IMG/VR virus record: IMGVR_UViG_3300035523_000031
Span: 1 to 41,925 of that record
Reading direction: 5' to 3' (one strand)
Length of the DNA stretch: 41,925 nt
Origin: a virus
Shown: positions 1,096-41,925 of the stretch, piece by piece
Position numbering within the stretch: position 1 is the first letter of the stretch
Layout of the letters: each line of letters starts with the position of its first letter
Made by a program: the position numbers and the translations under genes
The notes under the pieces: generated by a model
Told to the model about the DNA's origin: nothing
Seen by the model: the letters and a program-made list of their open reading frames with translations, nothing else
Database searches by the model: none

Positions 1096-3623
1096 CAGGC
1101 GGCCTCTTTCAGCGGTACCGGTTCATCCAGGTCGAACAGCGTCGGCATGCTGACCTCGCGCTCGATCGCGCGCAGGTAGTGCACCTGGTCAGCGAAGTAC
1201 GCGGCGGACAGCTCCGACCCGCCGCCGCGCCGCCCGGCCTTGATCGCCCGCACCGGCACCGTGCCCAGCCCGCAGAACGGGTCATAAACCAGATCGCCCT
1301 TGTTGCTGTATCGCTCGATCAGGCGGTCGACGATGTCGAACTGCAGGGGGCAGACGTGCTTCTCGACGGCCCGGTTGCTCTGCTCGCCGTTGAGCGTGCG
1401 CATGCGGTTCACGTCGTGCCACACGTCGGCGCAGTGGCTGCCCGGCGCGAGGCTCATGAAGGTGGAAGGCAGCGCGCCGCGTGCGAGCAGATCCTCGCCG
1501 ATCTTCACGTGGTGCTCGAAGTCGTAGACCCGGCGCAGGCTGTCCTCGGTGAAGTACTTGGCCAGCTTGGCCGGGCCCATCTGCGCCATCTCCTCGGCGG
1601 TCAGCAGGCGGTTGCCGCTGGAGCGCCAGAAGGCGTGCGCGTCGACCTGCCAGCGCGCCAGGCTGTATTCGTCCTTGCGCTTGACCACCGGCTGATCGGC
1701 GTAGCCGCGCGTGCGGTCGCTCTGCGGCTTGTGGAACAGCAGGATGTATTCCGGCGAGCCGGCGCCCATCTTCGTGCCGTCCTTGCACATCTCGGTGTAG
1801 CCGAGCCGATAGGTCTGGTTGTTCTCCCGGACCACGTCGGTCACCACCGTGATCATCCCCATGTAGTCGAAGCCGTGCTTCAAGCCATGGAACAGCGCCT
1901 CGGCGTGGAACGGGCTCACCGTGGGCACGCCGGCCCCGGTGACGTTGCCGAAGTTGATCCGGTCCTTCACGTGGCAGCAGTACATGCGGCCAGGCTTCAG
2001 GATCCGCAGCAGCTCGGGCGTGAGGAAGTCCATCTGCTGCCAGAAGTGGCTGTTGTCCTGGGTGTGGCCGAAGTCGTTGTAGCTCGGCGTGTATTCGTAG
2101 TGGTTCGCGAACGGGATGGAGGTCACGATCAGGTCGACGCTGTTCTCCGGCTGCTCCATGGCTTCCAGGACGCAGTCGTTGTTCGCCACGGTGAAGTGCT
2201 CGCCGCTGACTACCTTGCGCTCGATGCCGATCGACCTGGCCAGCGTGTCCTGCATGGCAACGTGGCTCAGGCCGTAGGTGCGGATGATCTCGGCCATCTT
2301 CGCCTGCATCTCGTCGTGCCGAGCCCACTTCTCGCGCAGCGTCTTGAGGACCTCGCGCTCGGACTCGGTCTGCACGATGTCGATGCGCACCGGCCGCTCC
2401 TGGCCGAAGCGCTGCACGCGGTGGATCGACTGGATGAAGTCGTTGAACTTGAAGCTGACGCCGGCGAACACCTCGCGGTGGCAGTGCCTCTGGAAGTTGC
2501 ACCCGCTGCCGGCGATGATCGGCTTCGTCGACAGGATCCTGTGGCGGCCGTCGCTGAAGTCGACGATGCGCTGCTCGCGCTCCTCCAGGTCCTGGGTGCC
2601 CCACACGCTCACCGCCTCGGGCAGGGCCGCCTGCAGGGCATGCCGCTCGTCCTCGAGGTCGTGCCAGACGATGAAGTGGTCCTGCGGGTCGGCCTGCACG
2701 ATCGCCGCGGCTTTGGCGACCCGTGCCGGCATGCTGTTTCGCTTCTCGGTGGCGGCGGCCGACAGCCCCATCGCCACGTCCGGGATCAGCAGGCCCTGGC
2801 CATTCTTCTCGGCGCCGGCGGCGGCATAGTCGCTGGGCACCTCGTGATAGCGCACGTCCAACTCCGGCAGCACGTAACCCTCGTCGCTGTGGCCCAGGTC
2901 GCTGGGGCGCTGGATGAAAACCGCCCAGCTCGCCACCCACAGCCAGAACTCCTGTTCCTTGTGCGGGTACAGCGTGAGGTTGCCCGCCTTCTCGCTGTCA
3001 CGCTGGAAGAACCGCGTCAGGGCCTGCCCGGTGTCCATCACGCCCAGGTAGCCGGCATAGTGGATCAGCTCCTTGAACCGGTTCGGGCTCGGCGTGGCGG
3101 TGGCCACGAACTTGAACTCCACCGGCGCGAAGGCGGGCAGGAACTCCTGATAGGTCTTGCTGCCGTAGCTGCGCAGCACGCTCGCCTCGTCCAGGCTGGC
3201 GGCGCGGAACTTCGACGGGTCGAGCTTGCCCTCGCGCACGCTCTCGTAGTTGGTCATGTAGATCGTGCGCTCGTCGCCGATCTCGCTGTCCGAGCGGATG
3301 AAGCGCAGGTCGATCGCGAAGTCACCGTGGAACCGCTGTGCGGCCTCGCGGTAGAACTCCTGGCGCACGCCCAGCGGCAGGACCTGCAAGCGCAATCCGG
3401 GCCGGTGCACGCCGATCAGGCGCATCAGTTCCAGCTGCGTTGCCGTCTTGTGCAGTCCGAAGCTGGCGAAGATGGCGCGGTTGCCACCCTTGGCGGCCCA
3501 CTTCACGATATCGCGGGTGTGCGGCTTCAGGGCGGGGTTGATCTCCTCGAGCGGCACATCGAAGCCGTCGAAGTGCGCGAGCTTGATCTTGTCGCGCAGG
3601 AATTCTAGGTACTGCTGGCTCAC
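1095..3623 (-). CDS. SNF2-like helicase fused to an N4/N6 DNA methyltransferase
   Basis: The 842-residue fusion has two enzymatic halves. Residues 1-470 are a superfamily 2 ATPase of SNF2 type: nucleotide-binding FGLHKT (55-60), DEAS motif II (145-148), TATP motif III (175-178) and HRVQRFGQ motif VI (401-408). Residues 475-842 are an amino-methyltransferase with motif IV TSIPF (501-505) before the SAM-binding motif DPFCGLGT (781-788), the permuted order of beta-class enzymes. Motif I has His where GLGKT is usual, and motif IV has Ile for the first Pro; both may be typical of this phage family. The GTG at 3623 overlaps the cytosine methyltransferase stop (GTGA). It probably modifies phage DNA against host restriction, perhaps translocating along it. 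Confidence 0.88.
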   Translation of the reverse strand: MSQQYLEFLRDKIKLAHFDGFDVPLEEINPALKPHTRDIVKWAAKGGNRAIFASFGLHKTATQLELMRLIGVHRPGLRLQVLPLGVRQEFYREAAQRFHGDFAIDLRFIRSDSEIGDERTIYMTNYESVREGKLDPSKFRAASLDEASVLRSYGSKTYQEFLPAFAPVEFKFVATATPSPNRFKELIHYAGYLGVMDTGQALTRFFQRDSEKAGNLTLYPHKEQEFWLWVASWAVFIQRPSDLGHSDEGYVLPELDVRYHEVPSDYAAAGAEKNGQGLLIPDVAMGLSAAATEKRNSMPARVAKAAAIVQADPQDHFIVWHDLEDERHALQAALPEAVSVWGTQDLEEREQRIVDFSDGRHRILSTKPIIAGSGCNFQRHCHREVFAGVSFKFNDFIQSIHRVQRFGQERPVRIDIVQTESEREVLKTLREKWARHDEMQAKMAEIIRTYGLSHVAMQDTLARSIGIERKVVSGEHFTVANNDCVLEAMEQPENSVDLIVTSIPFANHYEYTPSYNDFGHTQDNSHFWQQMDFLTPELLRILKPGRMYCCHVKDRINFGNVTGAGVPTVSPFHAEALFHGLKHGFDYMGMITVVTDVVRENNQTYRLGYTEMCKDGTKMGAGSPEYILLFHKPQSDRTRGYADQPVVKRKDEYSLARWQVDAHAFWRSSGNRLLTAEEMAQMGPAKLAKYFTEDSLRRVYDFEHHVKIGEDLLARGALPSTFMSLAPGSHCADVWHDVNRMRTLNGEQSNRAVEKHVCPLQFDIVDRLIERYSNKGDLVYDPFCGLGTVPVRAIKAGRRGGGSELSAAYFADQVHYLRAIEREVSMPTLFDLDEPVPLKEAA

Positions 3624-4534
3624 GCGGTCTCCCTGATCTTGTTGATGACGTCTCTGGCCACCTTCGGACACACCGCATTGCCAAGCATGAAGTTCGCCTC
3701 GGGCACGCTGGCCGGCAGCAGGTAGTCCACTGGAAAGCCCATGAAGTCGCGGTTCTCCGGAATGCTGGTCATGCGCATGCGGTCGCCGTCCACCACGGCC
3801 CATCGCGCCTTCGTGGTGATCGTCCCGATCGGCCGGTCCAGGCTGCGACCGGTCAGGCCCGAGCCGCTGCCGTAATACGGCATCACGAACCGGTCACCGA
3901 AGCGCGCGCGGCCGGCTGCAATGCGCTGCAGGGTGGCCAGCGACCGGCCTGGCTTGTGGATTGGTGACCAGCCAGGAGCACCGAAGTCGATCACGCTGCT
4001 GGCCGGCACGTGCGCGCGGCGCGGCAGGCTCAACTCGAGCGGGTGCTTGCTGCGCGTCAGGACTAGGAACAGGCGTTCGCGGTGCTGCGGCACACCATGT
4101 TCCGCGGCGTCGATTAGGTGCGGCGCGATCGCATAGCCCAGCGCGTTCATAGCCGCGCACCACGCCGGGAACAGCGTCCAGCGGGCGAAGTCCGGCACGT
4201 TCTCGACCAGGGCGACGGCCGGCCGGTGGCACTCGGCAGCGGAGACGACGGCCCATGCCGTGCTGCGCATCGCGTCGTGGTGCGGCCGATCCTTGCCGCG
4301 CGCTCGGCTGTGGCCCTGGCAGGCCGGGGATGCCATCAGGAGGTCATGCGCCGGCACGGTGGTCCAGTCGCACTGATGCAGGTCCTGGCAGGCGTGCACG
4401 GTGCCCGGGTGATTGGCCGCGTGGATCTCGACAGCCGCGCGCCAGTGGTTCGCGGCCCACACGACCGTGCAGCCGGCCATAGCTGCGCCAGTTGTGAAGC
4501 CGCCGGCGCCCGCGAAGAGATCCACGGCCCGCAT
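3620..4534 (-). CDS. DNA (cytosine-5-)-methyltransferase
   Basis: The 304-residue protein has the ordered C5-methyltransferase motifs: SAM-binding DLFAGAGGFTTG (5-16), motif IV SPACQGHS with catalytic Cys72, ENV (111-113) of motif VI, QHRERLFLV (150-158) of motif VIII, then a short target-recognition region and a C-terminal GNAVCPKVA (motif X). The usual PPCQ reads PACQ here. No restriction endonuclease gene is adjacent, so it looks like an orphan phage methylase that protects phage DNA, working beside the helicase-methyltransferase encoded next. It is in the leftward early operon. The target site cannot be read from the sequence. Confidence 0.92.
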   Translation of the reverse strand: MRAVDLFAGAGGFTTGAAMAGCTVVWAANHWRAAVEIHAANHPGTVHACQDLHQCDWTTVPAHDLLMASPACQGHSRARGKDRPHHDAMRSTAWAVVSAAECHRPAVALVENVPDFARWTLFPAWCAAMNALGYAIAPHLIDAAEHGVPQHRERLFLVLTRSKHPLELSLPRRAHVPASSVIDFGAPGWSPIHKPGRSLATLQRIAAGRARFGDRFVMPYYGSGSGLTGRSLDRPIGTITTKARWAVVDGDRMRMTSIPENRDFMGFPVDYLLPASVPEANFMLGNAVCPKVARDVINKIRETA

Positions 4535-4538
4535 CGCC

Positions 4539-5081
4539 TTACGCCTCCACTTCCTGCTGCTGCACCACCGGAGCCGTCAGCAGGATCGGGAACTCGCGAG
4601 TCTTCAGCAGCGCCAGCTTGCCGTGCGTCTTCTCGTTCACGTCGGGCGACTCGACGCGGAACTTCATCTCGACGCTGCCGCCTTCCTTGCACTTGAAGCG
4701 CCAGTTCGTCAGCTTGCAGTCCTCCAGTGAGATGTTCGACTTCGGCCCGCCCATGCCATGGTCGAGCGTCACGTCGTAGCCGGTGAGCTCCAGGTCCCAG
4801 CCGAACTGCCCGATCGCCTTGCCGATGCCGGTGAGGTTGGGCATGTCCGACACTGCCGGCACGCCTTCGAGCGTTCCTTGCGCCGGCGCCGAGCTGGCGG
4901 CCGTCTTGCAGAACAGCGCCGAGCGCAGGCCGCCGTCGAACATCGTGAGCATGTCGTTCGAGACGGTCATGCTGAAGTCCAGGCCGACGCCCGGGTTCGT
5001 GTCGGGTGCGCGGTCCTTGTCGGACAGGACGATGACGTCGACGAGCTTGGCCTGCGTCGGGGATTCAAGTTCGAAAGCCAT
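4539..5081 (-). CDS. Conserved protein of recombination cassette, unknown function
   Basis: The 180-residue protein has no motif I can assign with certainty. It is rich in short strands, with a central IGQFGWDLELTGYDVTLDHGM stretch and alternating hydrophobic and charged residues at the end, like a small beta fold. It sits between the exonuclease/RecT genes and the methyltransferases. A role as a single-strand DNA-binding or annealing partner is possible from position only. The start at 5081 has a moderate AAAGG site. An upstream ATG at 5153 would overlap the exonuclease stop (ATGA) and add 24 Pro/Thr-rich residues, and cannot be excluded. Confidence 0.6.
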   Translation of the reverse strand: MAFELESPTQAKLVDVIVLSDKDRAPDTNPGVGLDFSMTVSNDMLTMFDGGLRSALFCKTAASSAPAQGTLEGVPAVSDMPNLTGIGKAIGQFGWDLELTGYDVTLDHGMGGPKSNISLEDCKLTNWRFKCKEGGSVEMKFRVESPDVNEKTHGKLALLKTREFPILLTAPVVQQQEVEA

Positions 5082-8525: not shown

Positions 8526-8902
8526 GCGAAGTCCGCCTGCATGTCCGCCCACTTCGCCCCAGCCTCGGCCAGCAGCTGCTGCGCGTCGCGCTGGCACCCG
8601 CGACCGTTCGCCGCGTTCACCAGCACCTGCATTGCCCGCTTGCCGAAGTCGCTGTACGTCAGCGCGTCTTCGATCAGCTCCCACACCAGCGGCGCCGGCT
8701 CACCGCGCCGCGCGAACAGGGCCCGCGCCGTCACGTCGCCGTGCTGCACAGCTCCGGCGAAGAGCTGGCGCAGCAGCGCCTCAGCAGCGACGCGCTCGCG
8801 CTCGTCGGCCTCCATGCGCGCCAGCACCTGCTGCGTGCTGTCGTTCGCGCGGCACGCGGCCCGGCGTTCCGGGTCCAGGGCTTGTTCGAGGATCGCGCTC
8901 AC
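8522..8902 (-). CDS. Helical early protein, unknown function
   Basis: The 126-residue, mostly helical protein (LEQALDPERRAACRANDST, ERERVAAEALLRQLFAGAV, PAPLVWELIEDALTY, AMQVLVNAANGR) has no recognised motif. The GTG at 8902 overlaps the preceding TGA (GTGA), the same coupling used across this operon. Function unknown. Confidence 0.62.
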   Translation of the reverse strand: MSAILEQALDPERRAACRANDSTQQVLARMEADERERVAAEALLRQLFAGAVQHGDVTARALFARRGEPAPLVWELIEDALTYSDFGKRAMQVLVNAANGRGCQRDAQQLLAEAGAKWADMQADFA

Positions 8903-9651
8903 GATGTCACCTCGACCGGTTTGCCCGCTTCGAGCGTGTACCAGACGTTCGCCTTGACACCGTCGCGCCCGGCGACGCCGGCCCACGCGGCAACGATCGT
9001 CCATTGGCTGTCACGTTCCACGAGGAACAGCGCGCAGCCTTCGGCGGCCATCGCGCGGCCATCGCGGCCGGACGCCATCGCGGCCCCGTGCTTGCCGGTG
9101 GCGCTCGCCGCGCCGCTGTACCCGGTGGCGCTCGCCGCGCCTCTGTCCCCGGTGGCGCTCGCCGCGCCTCTGTCCCCGGTGGCGCTCGCCGCGCCTCTGT
9201 CCCCGGTGGCGCTCGCCGCGCCTCTGTCCCCGGTGGCGCTCGCGTGGCCCTGCTCCGCATCGGACAGCGCTGGCGACTCCGGATCGATCGGTTTCGCGCG
9301 GCTGAACGTGTCTTCGACCGCGGCCTTGATCAGCCCGGCGAAGTCAATTTCGGCCTTGATGTGGATGCGAGAGCTCGCGACCTTCGTGTCGCCGTCGTGC
9401 CGCGCGATCTCGCCGGACTGCTCGACGATCGCGAAGCGCGAACCGGCCGGCGGGTAGTAGGCGAAGACGTCCAGCGGGTGCTCGCAGGCGTGGAAGCCGC
9501 CCTCGCACGCCTTGACTTCGCCCTTGTGCTCGTAGGTCTTGCCGAGTTCGAACTGGAACGGCACGCCGCCGCCGTGGCAGCACAGCTTCGAGTCGAAGCC
9601 CTTGTACGCCAGCACGACCTGAGCCGCTTGCTCCACCTGTCTCTTCGCCAT
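8899..9651 (-). CDS. First gene of left early operon, with nine-residue tandem repeats
   Basis: The 250-residue protein has three parts. Residues 1-125 form a compact domain (VLAYKGFDSKLCCHGGG, GGFHACEHPLDVFAYY) resembling a phage domain of unknown function in which the FHACE-x-PLDV motif recurs. Residues 130-185 consist of a nine-residue unit, GAASATGDR, repeated about five times, which may form a small beta-solenoid or a flexible spacer. The last 60 residues (ALFLVERDSQWTIVAAWAGVAGRDG) form another strand-rich domain. The ATG follows GGAGAGACAG, and the gene is first after the probable left promoter and operator. The role is unknown; being first expressed, it could counter host functions. 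Confidence 0.7.
   Translation of the reverse strand: MAKRQVEQAAQVVLAYKGFDSKLCCHGGGVPFQFELGKTYEHKGEVKACEGGFHACEHPLDVFAYYPPAGSRFAIVEQSGEIARHDGDTKVASSRIHIKAEIDFAGLIKAAVEDTFSRAKPIDPESPALSDAEQGHASATGDRGAASATGDRGAASATGDRGAASATGDRGAASATGYSGAASATGKHGAAMASGRDGRAMAAEGCALFLVERDSQWTIVAAWAGVAGRDGVKANVWYTLEAGKPVEVTS
9095..9256. repeat. 27-bp tandem repeat inside a coding sequence
   Basis: Six units start at 9095, 9122, 9149, 9176, 9203 and 9230. The four middle units are identical; the first differs at two positions and the last diverges after 14 bases. The unit length is a multiple of three, so gain or loss of copies keeps frame and changes only the number of nine-residue protein repeats. Short-read assembly may have mis-stated the copy number. 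Confidence 0.95.
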
Positions 9652-9685
9652 CTGTCTCTCCTGCCGCCCGGTTCGTGGGCGTGGA

Positions 9686-9740
9686 TATAATTGTGCACAA
9701 GGAAATCTAGTAATGCAAGAGAAACTTGCATGGAGCCGCC
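9686..9740. promoter_or_regulatory. Left early promoter region with operator palindrome
   Basis: A perfect 7-bp inverted repeat, ATGCAAG (9713-9719) and CTTGCAT (9725-9731) with five bases between, lies about 60-80 bp upstream of the leftward gene starting at 9651. It is part of a 35-bp block (9706-9740) that matches 11660-11694 at 31 of 35 positions. AT-rich TATAAT (9686-9691) and its complement lie beside it in a GC-rich background and may form the leftward -10 region, although a good -35 is not clear. I infer an operator for the XRE repressor. Confidence 0.6.
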
Positions 9741-9785
9741 CCAACAATCCGACGAACGGTAGTCAGCGGGGCAGTTCCGGGCGTG

Positions 9786-9808
9786 AAAAAGCCCGCGCGA
9801 GGCGGGCT
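9786..9808 (-). terminator. Rho-independent terminator for leftward transcription
   Basis: Read on the minus strand, AGCCCGC and GCGGGCT (9790-9796 and 9802-9808) form a 7-bp GC stem with a 5-base loop, followed by five U residues (9786-9790). It lies downstream of the leftward repressor operon and would keep that transcript from running into the left early promoter region. Confidence 0.8.
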
Positions 9809-9819
9809 AGGAGAGAGCG

Positions 9820-10029
9820 ATGGACATCAAGTTGACGATTCCCGCACAGCCGGCACGGGAGATAACGATTCCAGAGTGCCCAGCACCGGGCGAGCGCGAG
9901 GCGCTCTGTCAAGCGATGGCTACGGCGAGACCCGGTGACGTGGTGACCTGCCCGCCGGGGACGCTGCTATCTCACTGGAACGGCCCAAATTTCAGCTGGA
10001 ACACGATGCCAGTCAGGATGCATTTCTAG
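9820..10029 (+). CDS. Small protein, unknown function, opposed to repressor operon
   Basis: The 69-residue protein contains a PAREITIPECPAPGEREALC segment and a C-terminal PPGTLLSHWNGPNFSWN stretch. A clear AGGAGAGAG site precedes the ATG, the main reason to accept it. It runs opposite to the repressor operon and overlaps the last gene of that operon by 17 bp tail to tail, so the leftward transcript is antisense to it. No family recognised. Confidence 0.55.
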   Translation: MDIKLTIPAQPAREITIPECPAPGEREALCQAMATARPGDVVTCPPGTLLSHWNGPNFSWNTMPVRMHF

Positions 10030-10216
10030 ACTGGCGCTCGACAGCGGCCGCGAGTTCGATCAGGCTGGCGCCGAGCACGCGAGCTTGGGCAGCCGTCAGT
10101 GTCGCAATGAGGTTTAGATTGAAGGTTCCGGAGCCGTCATCAGGTCGCGGCAGCACAAGATGAATGCAGTCGCGCGCGAACACGGGATAAACGGGGCCTT
10201 GGTCAGGGAACATCAT
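10013..10216 (-). CDS. Small cytosolic protein, last gene of repressor operon
   Basis: The 67-residue protein has a short beta part (GPVYPVFARDCIHLVLPRP) followed by a helix (TAAQARVLGASLIELAAAVE). No signal sequence and no family recognised. Its ATG overlaps the HNH gene stop (ATGA). Being coupled to three exported proteins, it could be an accessory or protective factor for them, but nothing in its sequence shows that. Confidence 0.6.
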   Translation of the reverse strand: MMFPDQGPVYPVFARDCIHLVLPRPDDGSGTFNLNLIATLTAAQARVLGASLIELAAAVERQSRNAS

Positions 10217-10500
10217 TTTCTCCTGAGCGAGCGACAAAGCCGGCGCTCGTCGGCGTCCTTGCGGACCGCAGCCGCAACCGTCTGCCACTGCATGTTCGTC
10301 CGGCGATCCGGGCCGCCGGCGCACAGCGGCCGCACGTGGTCGATCACGTAACCAGGGCACGAGCCCCGGCGTCGGCCAGTCGAAGGGCAGGGGTGCTCGC
10401 GCTCAAAGGCGGCGCGCTCAACCGCAGAACGCTCTTGGTGCGCTTTCGAAACTAAAGGCAGCGCTACGATCAACGCCGCCGTCAATCGCAGGGCGCTCAT
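10213..10500 (-). CDS. Exported HNH-type nuclease-like protein
   Basis: The 95-residue protein has an N-terminal hydrophobic stretch (LTAALIVALPLV, residues 6-17) ending in SKA, which looks like a cleavable signal peptide. The mature part holds an HNH-like core: CPSTGRRRGSCPGYVIDHV with the conserved D-H pair, LCAGGPDRRTNMQWQT supplying the Asn, and a final ADERRLC that may complete a cysteine pair. Similar secreted HNH proteins are common in proteobacteria and their phages but, as far as I know, lack a settled role. Here it is coupled by ATGA to its neighbours in the repressor operon, so it should be made in lysogens. A periplasmic nuclease acting on incoming DNA is a possible role. Confidence 0.78.
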   Translation of the reverse strand: MSALRLTAALIVALPLVSKAHQERSAVERAAFEREHPCPSTGRRRGSCPGYVIDHVRPLCAGGPDRRTNMQWQTVAAAVRKDADERRLCRSLRRK

Positions 10501-10793
10501 TTCTTGCGATCAGCAACGCGCTGAGCCAGGATCATCTGAATCAGGTGCGGCCTCAGCGCCTCTGCCATCGCGTTTTCTCTCTGCACGTCGATCGCAGCGT
10601 TGGCAAACGCTCGGCGACACAGGCCGTACAACCCAATCGCCACCGTGGCGGCGTCGGATTGATGGTCGTCGAGCGACGCGATGCCCGACTTCGCGCATTC
10701 GAAATATTTGCGCGTTGCTTCTGCGTATTGGTCTTGCGCGCGAGCACTGACAACCGCGACGCACATGAAGCACAGCAGTGCTACGCGCTGCAT
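10497..10793 (-). CDS. Small exported protein, unknown function
   Basis: The 98-residue protein has a likely signal peptide at residues 1-20 (hydrophobic VALLCFMCVAVV, then ARA before QDQY). The mature part is helical with two cysteines (YFECAKSG and YGLCRRAF), perhaps one disulphide in the periplasm. The start at 10793 overlaps the lipoprotein gene by 13 bp; the ribosome site is weak. The stop overlaps the HNH gene start. Function unknown. Confidence 0.68.
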   Translation of the reverse strand: MQRVALLCFMCVAVVSARAQDQYAEATRKYFECAKSGIASLDDHQSDAATVAIGLYGLCRRAFANAAIDVQRENAMAEALRPHLIQMILAQRVADRKK

Positions 10794-11107
10794 TTCTTCG
10801 CGACGCGCAACTCTTCCAGCTGCTTCTGTCGAGTGGTCGCGCTTTCCATCGCCGCTTGGCGCTCCATCGAATTGCCGATTCCGAAGTCGCCCAGGAACGC
10901 CAGCACGTCCTTCCCGCTGAACTGCGCCTCGGTTGTCACGCGCTCGACGAAGCCATTCGTGCGGGCCGCGTCGAGCGCAATCTCGCGGCAAGTCATCGAT
11001 TCCTTCTCGAAGGATGTGAGCGGGCCGAGTCGCCCGTATGTCTTCGTTGCGCAGCCGGCGACCGCGGCGGCCAACAGCGTGGCGACGATGATTTGGCGAA
11101 CGATCAT
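10781..11107 (-). CDS. Predicted lipoprotein in repressor operon
   Basis: The 108-residue protein has a lipoprotein signal (IIVATLLAAAVAGC, lipidation Cys19). The mature part starts ATKTYGRLGPLTSFEKESMTC and contains a conserved-looking FSGKDVLAFLGDFGIGN segment and a coiled C-terminal helix. Similar short lipoproteins occur in bacterial genomes without known function. The ATG overlaps the repressor stop (ATGA), so lysogens should make it and place it in an envelope membrane. Surface or periplasmic lipoproteins of prophages often alter phage entry; that role is inferred. Confidence 0.75.
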   Translation of the reverse strand: MIVRQIIVATLLAAAVAGCATKTYGRLGPLTSFEKESMTCREIALDAARTNGFVERVTTEAQFSGKDVLAFLGDFGIGNSMERQAAMESATTRQKQLEELRVAKKCSA

Positions 11108-11613
11108 CTCTTCTCCGGAGGGATGTCGTCCAGCAGCGAGCGCTGGCGCAGCTGCTCTGTCACTTCGAGTGCGGCGCGTGCGAGCTCAGTCTTCTTCGCG
11201 TCCGCGAAGTGGCGGGCGGGTGTTGAGCGGATTCCGTGGGGGGCGAGCAGTTTCTCCCTGAGCGCGCGAATCTTCGCGGCCTTGATCGCGACCTCTTCCA
11301 GGATGCGCCGCCACTCGTCCTCGTCGACCTGGATCTCACGCAGGTTGTCGACGAAGCGCTGCTCGTCGTCGGTCAGCGCGCCGAAATCGCTCCCAGGCTC
11401 CGGCGGCCCGGCAAGGTCGTCCAGTGCCAGCAGGCGGCGAACGACCTCCATCCTTGTGCGCTTCGGCGCGGAGGCTCCGTTTTCCCACTGCTGAACGGTC
11501 TGCCAGCTCAGCGGCTTCTTCAGCTCCTCGGCCTTGCTGACTTCGCTGGCCAGCCTTTCCATGGACCAGCCCTTCCTCTCGCGGGCGGTCTTGATCTGCT
11601 GGTGAATGTCCAT
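11104..11613 (-). CDS. XRE-family repressor, probable CI-type lysogeny regulator
   Basis: The 169-residue protein has an N-terminal helix-turn-helix (about residues 5-65: IKTARERKGWSMERLASEVSK, then SWQTVQQWENGASAPKRTRM), and a charged helical C-terminal half without the Ser/Lys autoproteolysis domain of LexA-type repressors. It is divergently placed from a Cro/YdaS-like gene, with operator-like repeats between. I start at the ATG at 11613; an ATG at 11646 would add 11 residues inside the promoter region. It probably holds the rightward and leftward early promoters silent. The lack of a peptidase domain suggests induction by something other than RecA-driven self-cleavage. Confidence 0.82.
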   Translation of the reverse strand: MDIHQQIKTARERKGWSMERLASEVSKAEELKKPLSWQTVQQWENGASAPKRTRMEVVRRLLALDDLAGPPEPGSDFGALTDDEQRFVDNLREIQVDEDEWRRILEEVAIKAAKIRALREKLLAPHGIRSTPARHFADAKKTELARAALEVTEQLRQRSLLDDIPPEKR

Positions 11614-11638: not shown

Positions 11639-11694
11639 TTGTGCATCAATGCAAGATGGTCTAGTATTGCTAGAGAATCTTGCATGGAGCCGCG
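11639..11694 (+). promoter_or_regulatory. Rightward early promoter with operator half-sites
   Basis: TTGTGC (11639-11644) and TAGTAT (11662-11667) are separated by exactly 17 bases and precede the Cro-like gene. ATGCAAG (11649-11655) lies in the spacer, and the degenerate palindrome TTGCTAG / CTTGCAT (11668-11674 and 11679-11685) lies just downstream of the -10. Block 11660-11694 matches the left operator block at 31 of 35 bases. A repressor bound here would block polymerase; the assignment is inferred. Confidence 0.65.
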
Positions 11695-11967
11695 ATGAAA
11701 CTGGATGTCCCCCCTGACGTTGAAAGTCCAACTGCCAGGGCCGTCCGGCTCCTCGGCGGCCCGGTTCGTGCAGCCTCCCGGCTGAACGTCGAGCGCTACC
11801 AGACCGTCCAGTCGTGGCTGCGAAATCGCGTCCCGGCGGAGTACTGCCCCCTGATCGAGCGTGAGACCGACGGCGCTGTCCGGTGCGAGGAACTGCGCCC
11901 CGATGTCGCCTGGGACGTGCTGCGCGAGCAGGCAGGGCAGGGCGCCGCCACCCATCCCCAAGCCTGA
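11695..11967 (+). CDS. YdaS/Cro-like DNA-binding protein
   Basis: The 90-residue protein has a helix-turn-helix (TARAVRLLGGPVRAASRLNV, then YQTVQSWLRNRVPAEYCPLIE) and the VRCEELRPDVAWDVLR ending typical of YdaS-family phage regulators, which take the place of Cro. It is the first gene of the rightward early transcript, opposite the repressor. The ATG at 11695 follows a GGAG only five bases away, and the operator overlaps its leader. Confidence 0.82.
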   Translation: MKLDVPPDVESPTARAVRLLGGPVRAASRLNVERYQTVQSWLRNRVPAEYCPLIERETDGAVRCEELRPDVAWDVLREQAGQGAATHPQA

Positions 11968-12089
11968 GGCGCACACGCCATGCGCGCGCCCTGGTTCCTC
12001 TGTTTCGAAACGGCTGAGCCTCATGCGGCGCAGTTTTGCCCGCGCGAGCCTCGCAACGCCACGCAATCTTTCTGCGGAGGTCTGCGGAC

Positions 12090-12479
12090 ATGACGCAACC
12101 AACCCTGCTTGCCGTCGAGGTTCCCCTCTCGGAGATCGTGCGCAAGAAGTCGCTCGGGCAGGCCATCGAGTACTGCGCCGAGCTGGCCGGCTACAGCTAC
12201 GACAAGGAGCTGGAAGAGGCGCTGCGCAAACACGGCGTGAGGGTCGACGCGACCCAGCTCACGCGCTGGAAGCAGGGCGGCGAGGGGATCAAGGAAGAAA
12301 AGTTCTTCGGCCTGATGGACGCGTGCGGCAACGACGCGCCGCTGCTGTACCTGAACTACGCCCGCGGCTGGGACCTGCACGCGATGCGCCGGCGCGAGAG
12401 CGAGCTGCAGCGCGAGCTGCGTCTGGCGCGCGAGGAGAACGCCGCGCTGCGCCGCGTGCTGCAGGGGAGTGGAACATGA
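12090..12479 (+). CDS. CII/YdaT-like regulatory protein
   Basis: The 129-residue protein has an N-terminal domain that resembles a phage DNA-binding fold (KKSLGQAIEYCAELAGYSYDKELEEAL, then VDATQLTRWKQGGEGIKEEKF with a helix-turn-helix look), and a C-terminal coiled-coil helix (MRRRESELQRELRLAREENAALRR) suited to oligomerisation. The place after the Cro-like gene is where CII or YdaT regulators sit. GCGGAGG precedes the ATG. It may activate lysogeny or late promoters. Confidence 0.65.
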   Translation: MTQPTLLAVEVPLSEIVRKKSLGQAIEYCAELAGYSYDKELEEALRKHGVRVDATQLTRWKQGGEGIKEEKFFGLMDACGNDAPLLYLNYARGWDLHAMRRRESELQRELRLAREENAALRRVLQGSGT

Positions 12480-40595: not shown

Positions 40596-41903
40596 ATGCC
40601 CTTCGACGGCCGCGACGCCAAGCTGTTACAGCCCGGAGACCACCTCACTTTACAGGAGCATCCAGGCCTGCGGCTCACGGCCACCGGGTCGCGGCGCAGC
40701 TGGATCTACCGCTACAAGTCGCCGGTGGACGGCGGCATGCGCCAGGTCAAGCTCGGCGAGTGGCCGGCGATGTCTTACCCGGCCGCGGCGGTGGAGTGGG
40801 AGAAGCGACGCGACGCCCGCGCCGGCGGCGTCGACGTGCAGCTGCAGAAGCGCGCGGCGCGGCGCCAGGAGCTGGCGGCAGTGGCCGCCGAGAAGGTCAG
40901 ACCCTACAGCGTGGCGGATCTGGTGCAGGACTACCTGGCCGGCCACATCGATCTGCACCGCAAGCCCAAGGGCCGCTCCGAGGTCCGCAGGCTGCTCGAG
41001 CAGCACACCGTGCCGATCGCGGATCGGCCGGCGCACCTAGTGCTGCGCAGCGAGGCCTACGACCTGCTGCAGGCCCTGTCCGACCGGCCGGTGCTGATGG
41101 GGCAGGTCCGCCAGGAGATGGGCGCTGCCTACGATTACGGGCTGGACAGCGGCCGGCTGCCGGAGAACACGCCCAACTGGTGGCGCCAGGTCTGGCGCGG
41201 GAAGATGCCGCGCACCCTCGGCAAGAAGATCGCCGGCAAGCACGTCGGGGCCGCGTCGCGGGTCCTGAACGAGAAGGAGATCGGCACGCTGGCCAACTGG
41301 CTGCCGAACTTCAGCCGCACCATCGCGGATGTGGTGACGCTGTACCTGTGGACCGGCACGCGCGGCGCCGAGATCGTGGCCATGGAAAAGGGCGAGATCA
41401 CCGACGAGCCGACTGGGCTGTGGTGGACGATTCCGAAGGAAAAGACGAAGAACGCGAAGCGCGCCGGCGCGTCGGATCTGCGGGTGCCGTTGATCGGCCG
41501 GGCAAAGGCCGTGGTGCTGCGCCGGCTCGGGGCCGCTGAGCGGTATCTCTTCGCCTCAGCGGTCAGGGCCGAGGATGGGTCGGAGCGGCCGATCGAGCAG
41601 AAGGCGGTGCAGAGCGGCGTCTACCACCACCAGCCCTATTGCAAGACGACGGACAAGGGCGCGCAGCCACGGCCGCGCCTGACGGTGACGCACTGGTCGC
41701 CCCACGATCTGCGGCGCACGGTGCGCACGCAGTTGGCCGCCATGGGCTGCCCGGCCGAGGTGGCCGAGTCGGTGCTGGGGCACATGCTGCCGGGCGTGGT
41801 CGGGGTCTATAACCGGCATGGCTACGATGCCGAGCGGCTGGACTGGCTCACGCGCCTTGATGCCCGACTTGAGGAGCTGGCGCGGGCGGCCGCGGCTTCT
41901 TAG
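40596..41903 (+). CDS. int: Tyrosine-type integrase
   Basis: The 435-residue protein has an N-terminal arm-binding domain of P4-integrase type (LTLQEHPGLRLTATGSRRSWIYRYKSP, VKLGEWPAMSYPAA), a core-binding domain (about 105-215) and the catalytic domain with R256 in TGTRGAE, H370 and R373 in HDLRRT, H396 in LGHM and Y405 in VYNRH. All active residues are present. AGGAG precedes the ATG, and the last arm-type repeat ends about 6 bp before that site, so the integrase may limit its own expression. The final 35 codons recur at window start. Confidence 0.95.
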   Translation: MPFDGRDAKLLQPGDHLTLQEHPGLRLTATGSRRSWIYRYKSPVDGGMRQVKLGEWPAMSYPAAAVEWEKRRDARAGGVDVQLQKRAARRQELAAVAAEKVRPYSVADLVQDYLAGHIDLHRKPKGRSEVRRLLEQHTVPIADRPAHLVLRSEAYDLLQALSDRPVLMGQVRQEMGAAYDYGLDSGRLPENTPNWWRQVWRGKMPRTLGKKIAGKHVGAASRVLNEKEIGTLANWLPNFSRTIADVVTLYLWTGTRGAEIVAMEKGEITDEPTGLWWTIPKEKTKNAKRAGASDLRVPLIGRAKAVVLRRLGAAERYLFASAVRAEDGSERPIEQKAVQSGVYHHQPYCKTTDKGAQPRPRLTVTHWSPHDLRRTVRTQLAAMGCPAEVAESVLGHMLPGVVGVYNRHGYDAERLDWLTRLDARLEELARAAAAS

Positions 41904-41925
41904 CTCCGGTGTTGGGTGGCGGCAG
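41799..41925. repeat. Right copy of 127-bp exact terminal repeat
   Basis: Identical to bases 1-127. Joining the two copies gives a 41,798-bp circle with one intact integrase gene and the excisionase gene on the other strand overlapping its 3' end. Confidence 0.95.

Follow-up and report, generated by a model that had tools for sequence, protein, structure and literature searches.

A repressor-linked phage operon encoding predicted envelope proteins and a secreted HNH-like protein, a candidate module against incoming DNA

We found that a probably temperate podophage carries, behind its repressor gene and between its operators, an operon for a lipoprotein, two proteins with signal-peptide-like starts, one of them HNH-like, and a small cytosolic protein. 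At even chances, this operon would be an envelope module expressed in lysogeny that keeps DNA from entering, with a nuclease in the periplasm and membrane partners that vary between phages. Of greater interest than this one operon is the family of exported HNH proteins itself, found in the repressor slot with partners at the membrane. Exclusion systems are already known to occur among the accessory genes behind phage repressors; our literature search revealed no recurring exported nuclease in this position, and the word nuclease is absent from the text of a 2024 review on superinfection exclusion (PMC11436027).

The window, i.e., the whole stretch of DNA analyzed, is an IMG/VR record of 41,925 bases with 68% G+C. 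The operon and the hairpin that closes it consist of the following features:

11104 to 11613, minus strand: repressor-like HTH protein, 169 aa, no S24 peptidase domain (HTH_31 and phrog_3 matches)
10781 to 11107, minus strand: lipoprotein, 108 aa (phrog_10370 match, lipobox AVAG-C)
10497 to 10793, minus strand: signal-peptide protein, 98 aa, with two cysteines in the mature part (from the sequence)
10213 to 10500, minus strand: secreted HNH-like protein, 95 aa (conserved D54-H55...N69 core, fold search)
10013 to 10216, minus strand: small cytosolic protein, 67 aa (open reading frame)
9786 to 9808, minus strand: leftward intrinsic-terminator-like hairpin (7-bp GC-rich stem and T5)

The five genes run from 11613 to 10013 with the repressor gene first, and every junction overlaps. 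Three of the four junctions are of the ATGA type (11107-11104, 10500-10497, and 10216-10213), and the lipoprotein gene shares 13 nt with that of the 98-aa protein. This layout had been described in an earlier sequence-only reading of the same DNA, and all five genes were present as described, confirming the observation. The same reading placed a leftward terminator after the operon, and a hairpin with a T run is indeed present at 9808-9786; its fold is modest (-13.3 kcal/mol, with a z value of only -0.94), many shuffled sequences fold as well, and a scan of the window did not report it. The sigma-70 promoter scan gave no match. Signal peptides of the operon proteins were judged by eye from the sequence. 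A convergent 69-aa open reading frame with no family match was also observed at 9820-10029 on the plus strand, overlapping the operon end just inside the left operator.

The 169-aa HTH protein matched HTH_31 with an E value of 4.6e-4, below the curated cut-off, and the phrog_3 transcriptional repressor with an E value of 1e-5. Its role as a repressor was assigned from its position, as a YdaS/Cro-type gene diverges from it, operators lie between both genes, and the genome contains an integrase:

9713 to 9731, no strand: OL-like operator, perfect dyad ATGCAAG-N5-CTTGCAT, before the leftward early genes (repeat and pattern search)
11649 to 11667, no strand: OR-like operator 1, two mismatches (pattern search)
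11667 to 11685, no strand: OR-like operator 2, two mismatches, inside the 34-nt repeat (repeat and pattern search)
11695 to 11967, plus strand: divergent Cro/YdaS-type regulator (PF15943, E 4.6e-18)
12036 to 12479, plus strand: possible CII-like regulator, with an ATG at 12090 (resemblance only)
40596 to 41903, plus strand: tyrosine integrase (PF00589, E 5.5e-10)

The left and right operator regions share a 34-nt direct repeat of 91% identity (9706-9739 and 11660-11693). No shuffled sequence reached as many matches to the operator pattern, and the exact half-site ATGCAAG occurs four times in 41.9 kb, always within the OL or OR places. Another pattern, TGCAAGA...TCTTGCA, failed to match the operators and was discarded in favor of ATGCAAG-N5-CTTGCAT. 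The YdaS/Cro-type gene diverges at the right copy, and the leftward early genes begin beyond the left one; the first of them (8899-9747, minus strand) encodes a product with tandem SATGDRGAA repeats, which may be compared with a repeat protein (AATDAAHV) near the repressor of record L043. The flanking operators, missed in the earlier reading, are the best evidence that the operon genes would be co-regulated with the repressor. With operators on both sides and its genes downstream of the repressor, the operon fills the immunity-region slot, the place of rexAB in lambda. According to a transcriptomic study, accessory loci are commonly found from the repressor to the N gene of lambdoid prophages, and rexAB are among the genes expressed in lysogeny (PMC7067206).

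A similar layout was found among the 59 viral relatives of the repressor. In record L240, whose repressor is 48% identical, the repressor gene is followed by genes for membrane proteins of 51 and 97 aa and then for a secreted HNH protein; its operator copies, at 4929 and 6704, are identical at 21 of 24 positions, and the best of 30 shuffles reached 18. Record L241 (46% identical) contains the repressor and an 87-aa membrane protein, as well as a divergent gene similar to the possible CII-like gene of the window. Its operator copies at 4924 and 6262 also agree at 21 of 24 positions, with a best shuffle of 20, hence they are weaker than those of L240. With operator copies flanking the operon and the same layout in these two relatives (46-48% repressor identity), expression linked to lysogeny, as the sequence-only reading had expected, is likely. 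L240, L241, and L251 carry different envelope genes behind related repressors, the kind of cargo variation known from a rex-type slot. This cargo is mosaic, yet predicted to be envelope-directed in the cases read.

A direct terminal repeat of 127 bases, at 1-127 and 41799-41925, indicates that the record is probably a complete genome. It encodes a podophage-type portal (Head-tail_con, E 1e-96 in a profile search of the window), a capsid, a terminase, and a T7-type fibre start. Since a tyrosine integrase denotes a temperate phage, this is probably a temperate podophage, with a proteobacterial host. A DNA-level search of deposited phages with a structural stretch of the window found zero relatives. 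One gene of a leftward operon (3620-4534, minus strand) reads by eye as a DNA cytosine methyltransferase with the motif DLFAGAGGF.

Next, we analyzed the secreted HNH-like protein. It had no Pfam, NCBIfam, or PADLOC model, a PDB sequence search with the single sequence as query gave no match, and a weak PHROG match to HNH was obtained (phrog_333, E 0.002). A search with an alignment of relatives yielded 363 viral matches, whereas only one record was found in 50,697 deposited phages, along with two plasmids; among 300 genomes from a single bacterial order there were eight strong cases. The family is large and uncharacterised; it is frequent in viral sequences from the environment but hardly represented in deposited phages, and so it has escaped study. 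In three genomes of about 1.3 Mb (L220, L221, and L222), a secreted HNH gene was observed amid ordinary chromosomal genes, apparently outside any prophage.

Conservation was read from 35-38 diverse member sequences, and R24, F32, C38, P39, C48, P49, G50, D54, H55, L59, G63, N69, K81, and D82 were invariant. The loss of the HNH active site in the family, which would have refuted the earlier reading, was not observed, as D54, H55, and N69 are kept; H55 and N69 have the spacing of the HNH motif, and the family profile aligned both residues with this motif of Cas8f-HNH (E 0.009). The third metal-site His is absent, as no conserved His follows N69 and K81-D82 are invariant instead. T4 endonuclease VII and the HNH domain of Cas9 are D-H...N nucleases active without a third His, so the missing residue does not rule out activity. 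The AlphaFold2 model had a pLDDT of 87, with elements E51-55, E70-74, and H75-94 that may correspond to the beta-beta-alpha fold of HNH nucleases, and the fold search retrieved mostly HNH nucleases, McrA, and colicin/pyocin DNases, with probability up to 0.99 and E values of 0.1 or worse. Almost every member read has a signal-peptide-like start, and the C38/C48 pair would suit a periplasmic disulfide. In L016, L018, L025, L026, L033, and L038, the HNH part is fused to a C-terminal YTGPRGG...GGxKRY-type segment, possibly a basic DNA-binding tail.

Then, the genes around the HNH family were inspected. An HTH_3 gene lay just upstream on the same strand in 41 of 89 HNH records against 5.6 expected (17/39 versus 2.2 and 24/50 versus 3.4 in the two sets), ratios that are approximate, as weak HTH_3 matches were counted and records were uncorrected for relatedness. 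A link required an HTH_3 gene in the same orientation and no more than 2.5 kb upstream, and the expectation was derived from the HTH_3 matches per record, assuming random position and strand. The association with repressors predicted by the sequence-only reading was thus recovered in homologues. The stricter view, in which every HNH gene would be linked to a repressor, was rejected, as about half of the relatives were without a detected HTH_3 gene nearby; among the apparent negatives, L154, L164, and L182 have a repressor-like gene missed by HTH_3 or just outside the rule. Other contexts were an endolysin-like gene adjoining the HNH gene in L225, tail or head regions in L013, L041, and L152, and structural genes in L044.

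Among the repressor-linked loci read, the repressor stood directly before the HNH gene in 3, and another gene was directly upstream in 40. A strong hydrophobic segment, defined as 19 residues with a mean hydropathy of at least 1.6, was found in 28 of these 40 upstream partners, compared with 8 of 34 downstream genes, and about nine of the remaining partners read by eye as signal peptides or lipoproteins; these genes were called by simple rules, and a few rows may be wrong. Zinc-ribbon membrane proteins occur among these partners, as do one lipoprotein resembling BamE, one PDZ lipoprotein, and one protein of the T4 Imm family. This last one is encoded in L161 (4744-5290; PF14373, E 2e-14) directly upstream of the secreted HNH gene and behind the repressor. 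In L152 (4687-5312), the Imm-family/HNH pair lies amid structural genes, a hint that the two genes travel together. Both Imm-family proteins have a C-terminal zinc ribbon, and such a gene adjoined HNH in 2 of the 89 records only. The partner in L023 had a weak Cor-like match (E 0.001). A protein of no known family with two hydrophobic segments recurred beside the HNH gene in L161 (4277-4738) and L026 (8559-9023), and a protein of L223 (1878-2420), with no Pfam match, may resemble it.

The lipoprotein of the window has its own family and a similar link. It matched the phrog_10370 'lipoprotein' with an E value of 2.4e-30 and contains a lipobox; in the family, the motif FLGDFGIGN is conserved, and C40 and C106 are invariant. 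Its AlphaFold2 model was all-helical (pLDDT 84), and PDB fold and sequence searches gave no meaningful relative. An HTH_3 gene was upstream in 18 of 33 records against 1.7 expected. In the Pseudomonas phages vB_Pae-SS2019XII and Tom33, the lipoprotein gene is directly behind an HTH repressor-like gene, and JBD25 has the same gene order with a shorter annotated upstream gene; this order of repressor and lipoprotein is that of P. aeruginosa Beetrevirus-type phages. The family is also present in Aeromonas phage 65 (L049), a lytic T4-like phage in which it cannot be a lysogeny gene. A second small lipoprotein, with motifs near DPDSAQY and AFTGY/AYTGF, was observed between the repressor and the phrog_10370 lipoprotein in L059, L064, L069, L071-L073, L076, and L078, a placement seen in many prophages.

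The four-gene set, which the sequence-only reading had proposed to look for in other prophages, was not conserved. The 98-aa protein had zero relatives in deposited phages, viral contigs, and fetched loci, and the 67-aa protein had zero in fetched loci. The lipoprotein and the HNH protein occurred together in the window and in none of the other sequences, including the repressor relatives, and the HNH family was absent from five searched genomes that carry the lipoprotein. The idea that the lipoprotein positions the nuclease at sites of DNA entry is thus left without comparative support. None of the HNH, lipoprotein, 98-aa, or 67-aa proteins gave a convincing PADLOC defence-model match, and Imm_superinfect (PF14373) did not match any operon protein of the window.

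An envelope module against incoming DNA fits where the genes lie, their signals for export and nuclease core, and the partners they have. We propose that the operon would be accessory cargo of the immunity region, co-transcribed with the repressor in the lysogen, whose exported proteins would prevent DNA from entering the lysogen. In the periplasm, the HNH protein would serve as a dedicated nuclease and attack DNA once it has passed the outer membrane. The small membrane proteins or lipoproteins encoded upstream, exchanged between phages and including the T4 Imm family, may hinder passage through the inner membrane or, alternatively, disturb the ejection conduit so that DNA becomes exposed; in the window phage, this part would be played by the lipoprotein and the 98-aa protein. 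Phage DNA usually traverses the periplasm enclosed in a protein conduit, P22 being an example (PMC10883804), and a free nuclease would therefore require a partner that exposes it. Superinfection exclusion is the function we favor, given the partners at the membrane and the pairing with Imm, and the main rival is a block of transformation. Against an exclusion module stand the pairing of lipoprotein and HNH protein only here, the roughly half of HNH genes without HTH_3, the lack of the third His, and the rarity of the Imm pairing. The earlier interpretation is therefore partly supported: a periplasmic exclusion module is a reasonable inference from the repressor link, the exported or membrane partners, and the Imm pair, whereas the role given to the lipoprotein in nuclease placement was not supported by the comparisons. 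More specifically, and tentatively, the family may represent a widespread and so far unnamed two-part exclusion system of temperate phages, in which an exchangeable membrane protein or lipoprotein stalls or exposes the DNA and the secreted HNH protein destroys it in the periplasm, both expressed from the repressor operon.

It is also conceivable, albeit somewhat unlikely, that the HNH protein, made in lysogeny, works as a DNase in the periplasm against natural transformation and spares the prophage from replacement by homologous DNA (chromosome curing), with the membrane proteins and lipoproteins being separate accessory genes. Naked double-stranded DNA does reach the periplasm during transformation, hence no partner would be required, and a function that serves the resident prophage would agree with the repressor link. 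There are precedents, as natural transformation is prevented by DNases of Campylobacter jejuni prophages (PMC11472951) and of a Vibrio cholerae ICE (PMC3995785). This explanation leaves unaccounted for the envelope protein usually encoded upstream of HNH and the Imm-family pairing in L152 and L161. If transforming DNA is the target, the family would add further evidence that prophages resist curing by recombination.

We regard as unlikely that the slot just collects unrelated lysogenic-conversion genes, e.g., for receptor masking, scavenging of nutrient DNA, or host fitness, with no functional module. The full gene set is unique to the window phage, the cargo behind homologous repressors varies among relatives, and HNH and lipoprotein copies are found in other contexts too, all of which this explanation would accommodate; however, most cargo examined is predicted to be envelope-targeted, and HNH was repeatedly close behind a membrane or exported partner. 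Finally, an HNH-like protein that is inactive, or serves only in lysis for DNA clearing or as a release aid, with its repressor-proximal place reflecting recombination hot spots, would agree with the missing third HNH residue, the endolysin-like neighbor in L225, and the structural genes beside it in L152 and L044, but is very unlikely, given that 35 diverse members all retain D54, H55, and N69, that some HNH nucleases, namely T4 endonuclease VII and the HNH domain of Cas9, function without the third His, and that the repressor-linked copies sit on the repressor strand.

When compared with known systems, the candidate exclusion module resembles the DNases of C. jejuni CJIE1 (Dns) and CJIE4 (CJE1441) and of the V. 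cholerae ICE in that a chromosomal mobile element would encode an exported DNase that excludes DNA, whereas the family described here consists of HNH proteins of about 95 aa in a repressor operon. Like P22 SieA, phage Cor, the Ltp lipoproteins, and T4 Spackle, the operon includes small phage envelope proteins that may block the entry of other phages, but its lipoprotein and 98-aa protein showed no homology to these in family libraries. T4 Spackle, which is small, helical, and periplasmic and contains a disulfide, is able to exclude phages (PMC7677548). The HNH protein shares the aligned H55 and N69 with Cas8f-HNH, and its predicted fold may resemble that of Cas8f-HNH, McrA, and colicin-type HNH nucleases; it differs from them in being stand-alone, predicted to be exported, provided with two conserved cysteines, and devoid of the third His. 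If active, it would show how prophages defend the periplasm, a compartment beyond restriction and CRISPR.

The operon shares with the lambda rexAB slot the location of accessory genes between OL and OR, behind the repressor and on its strand, and their variation among relatives. The Rex proteins are a cytosolic and inner-membrane exclusion system, whereas the cargo of the window, with its HNH-like protein, is predicted to be exported. T4 Imm (PF14373) is comparable through the Imm-family genes directly upstream of secreted HNH in L152 and L161, with DNA entry as the presumed target, although the window is without an Imm homologue. The DNA diverted by T4 Imm is thought to be cut by the host endonuclease I, and we know of no phage-encoded partner nuclease for this protein. 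An active HNH protein would make the old idea of Imm plus an endonuclease directly testable and, should the two-part exclusion system hold true, it would be the phage-encoded equivalent of T4 Imm acting with host endonuclease I.
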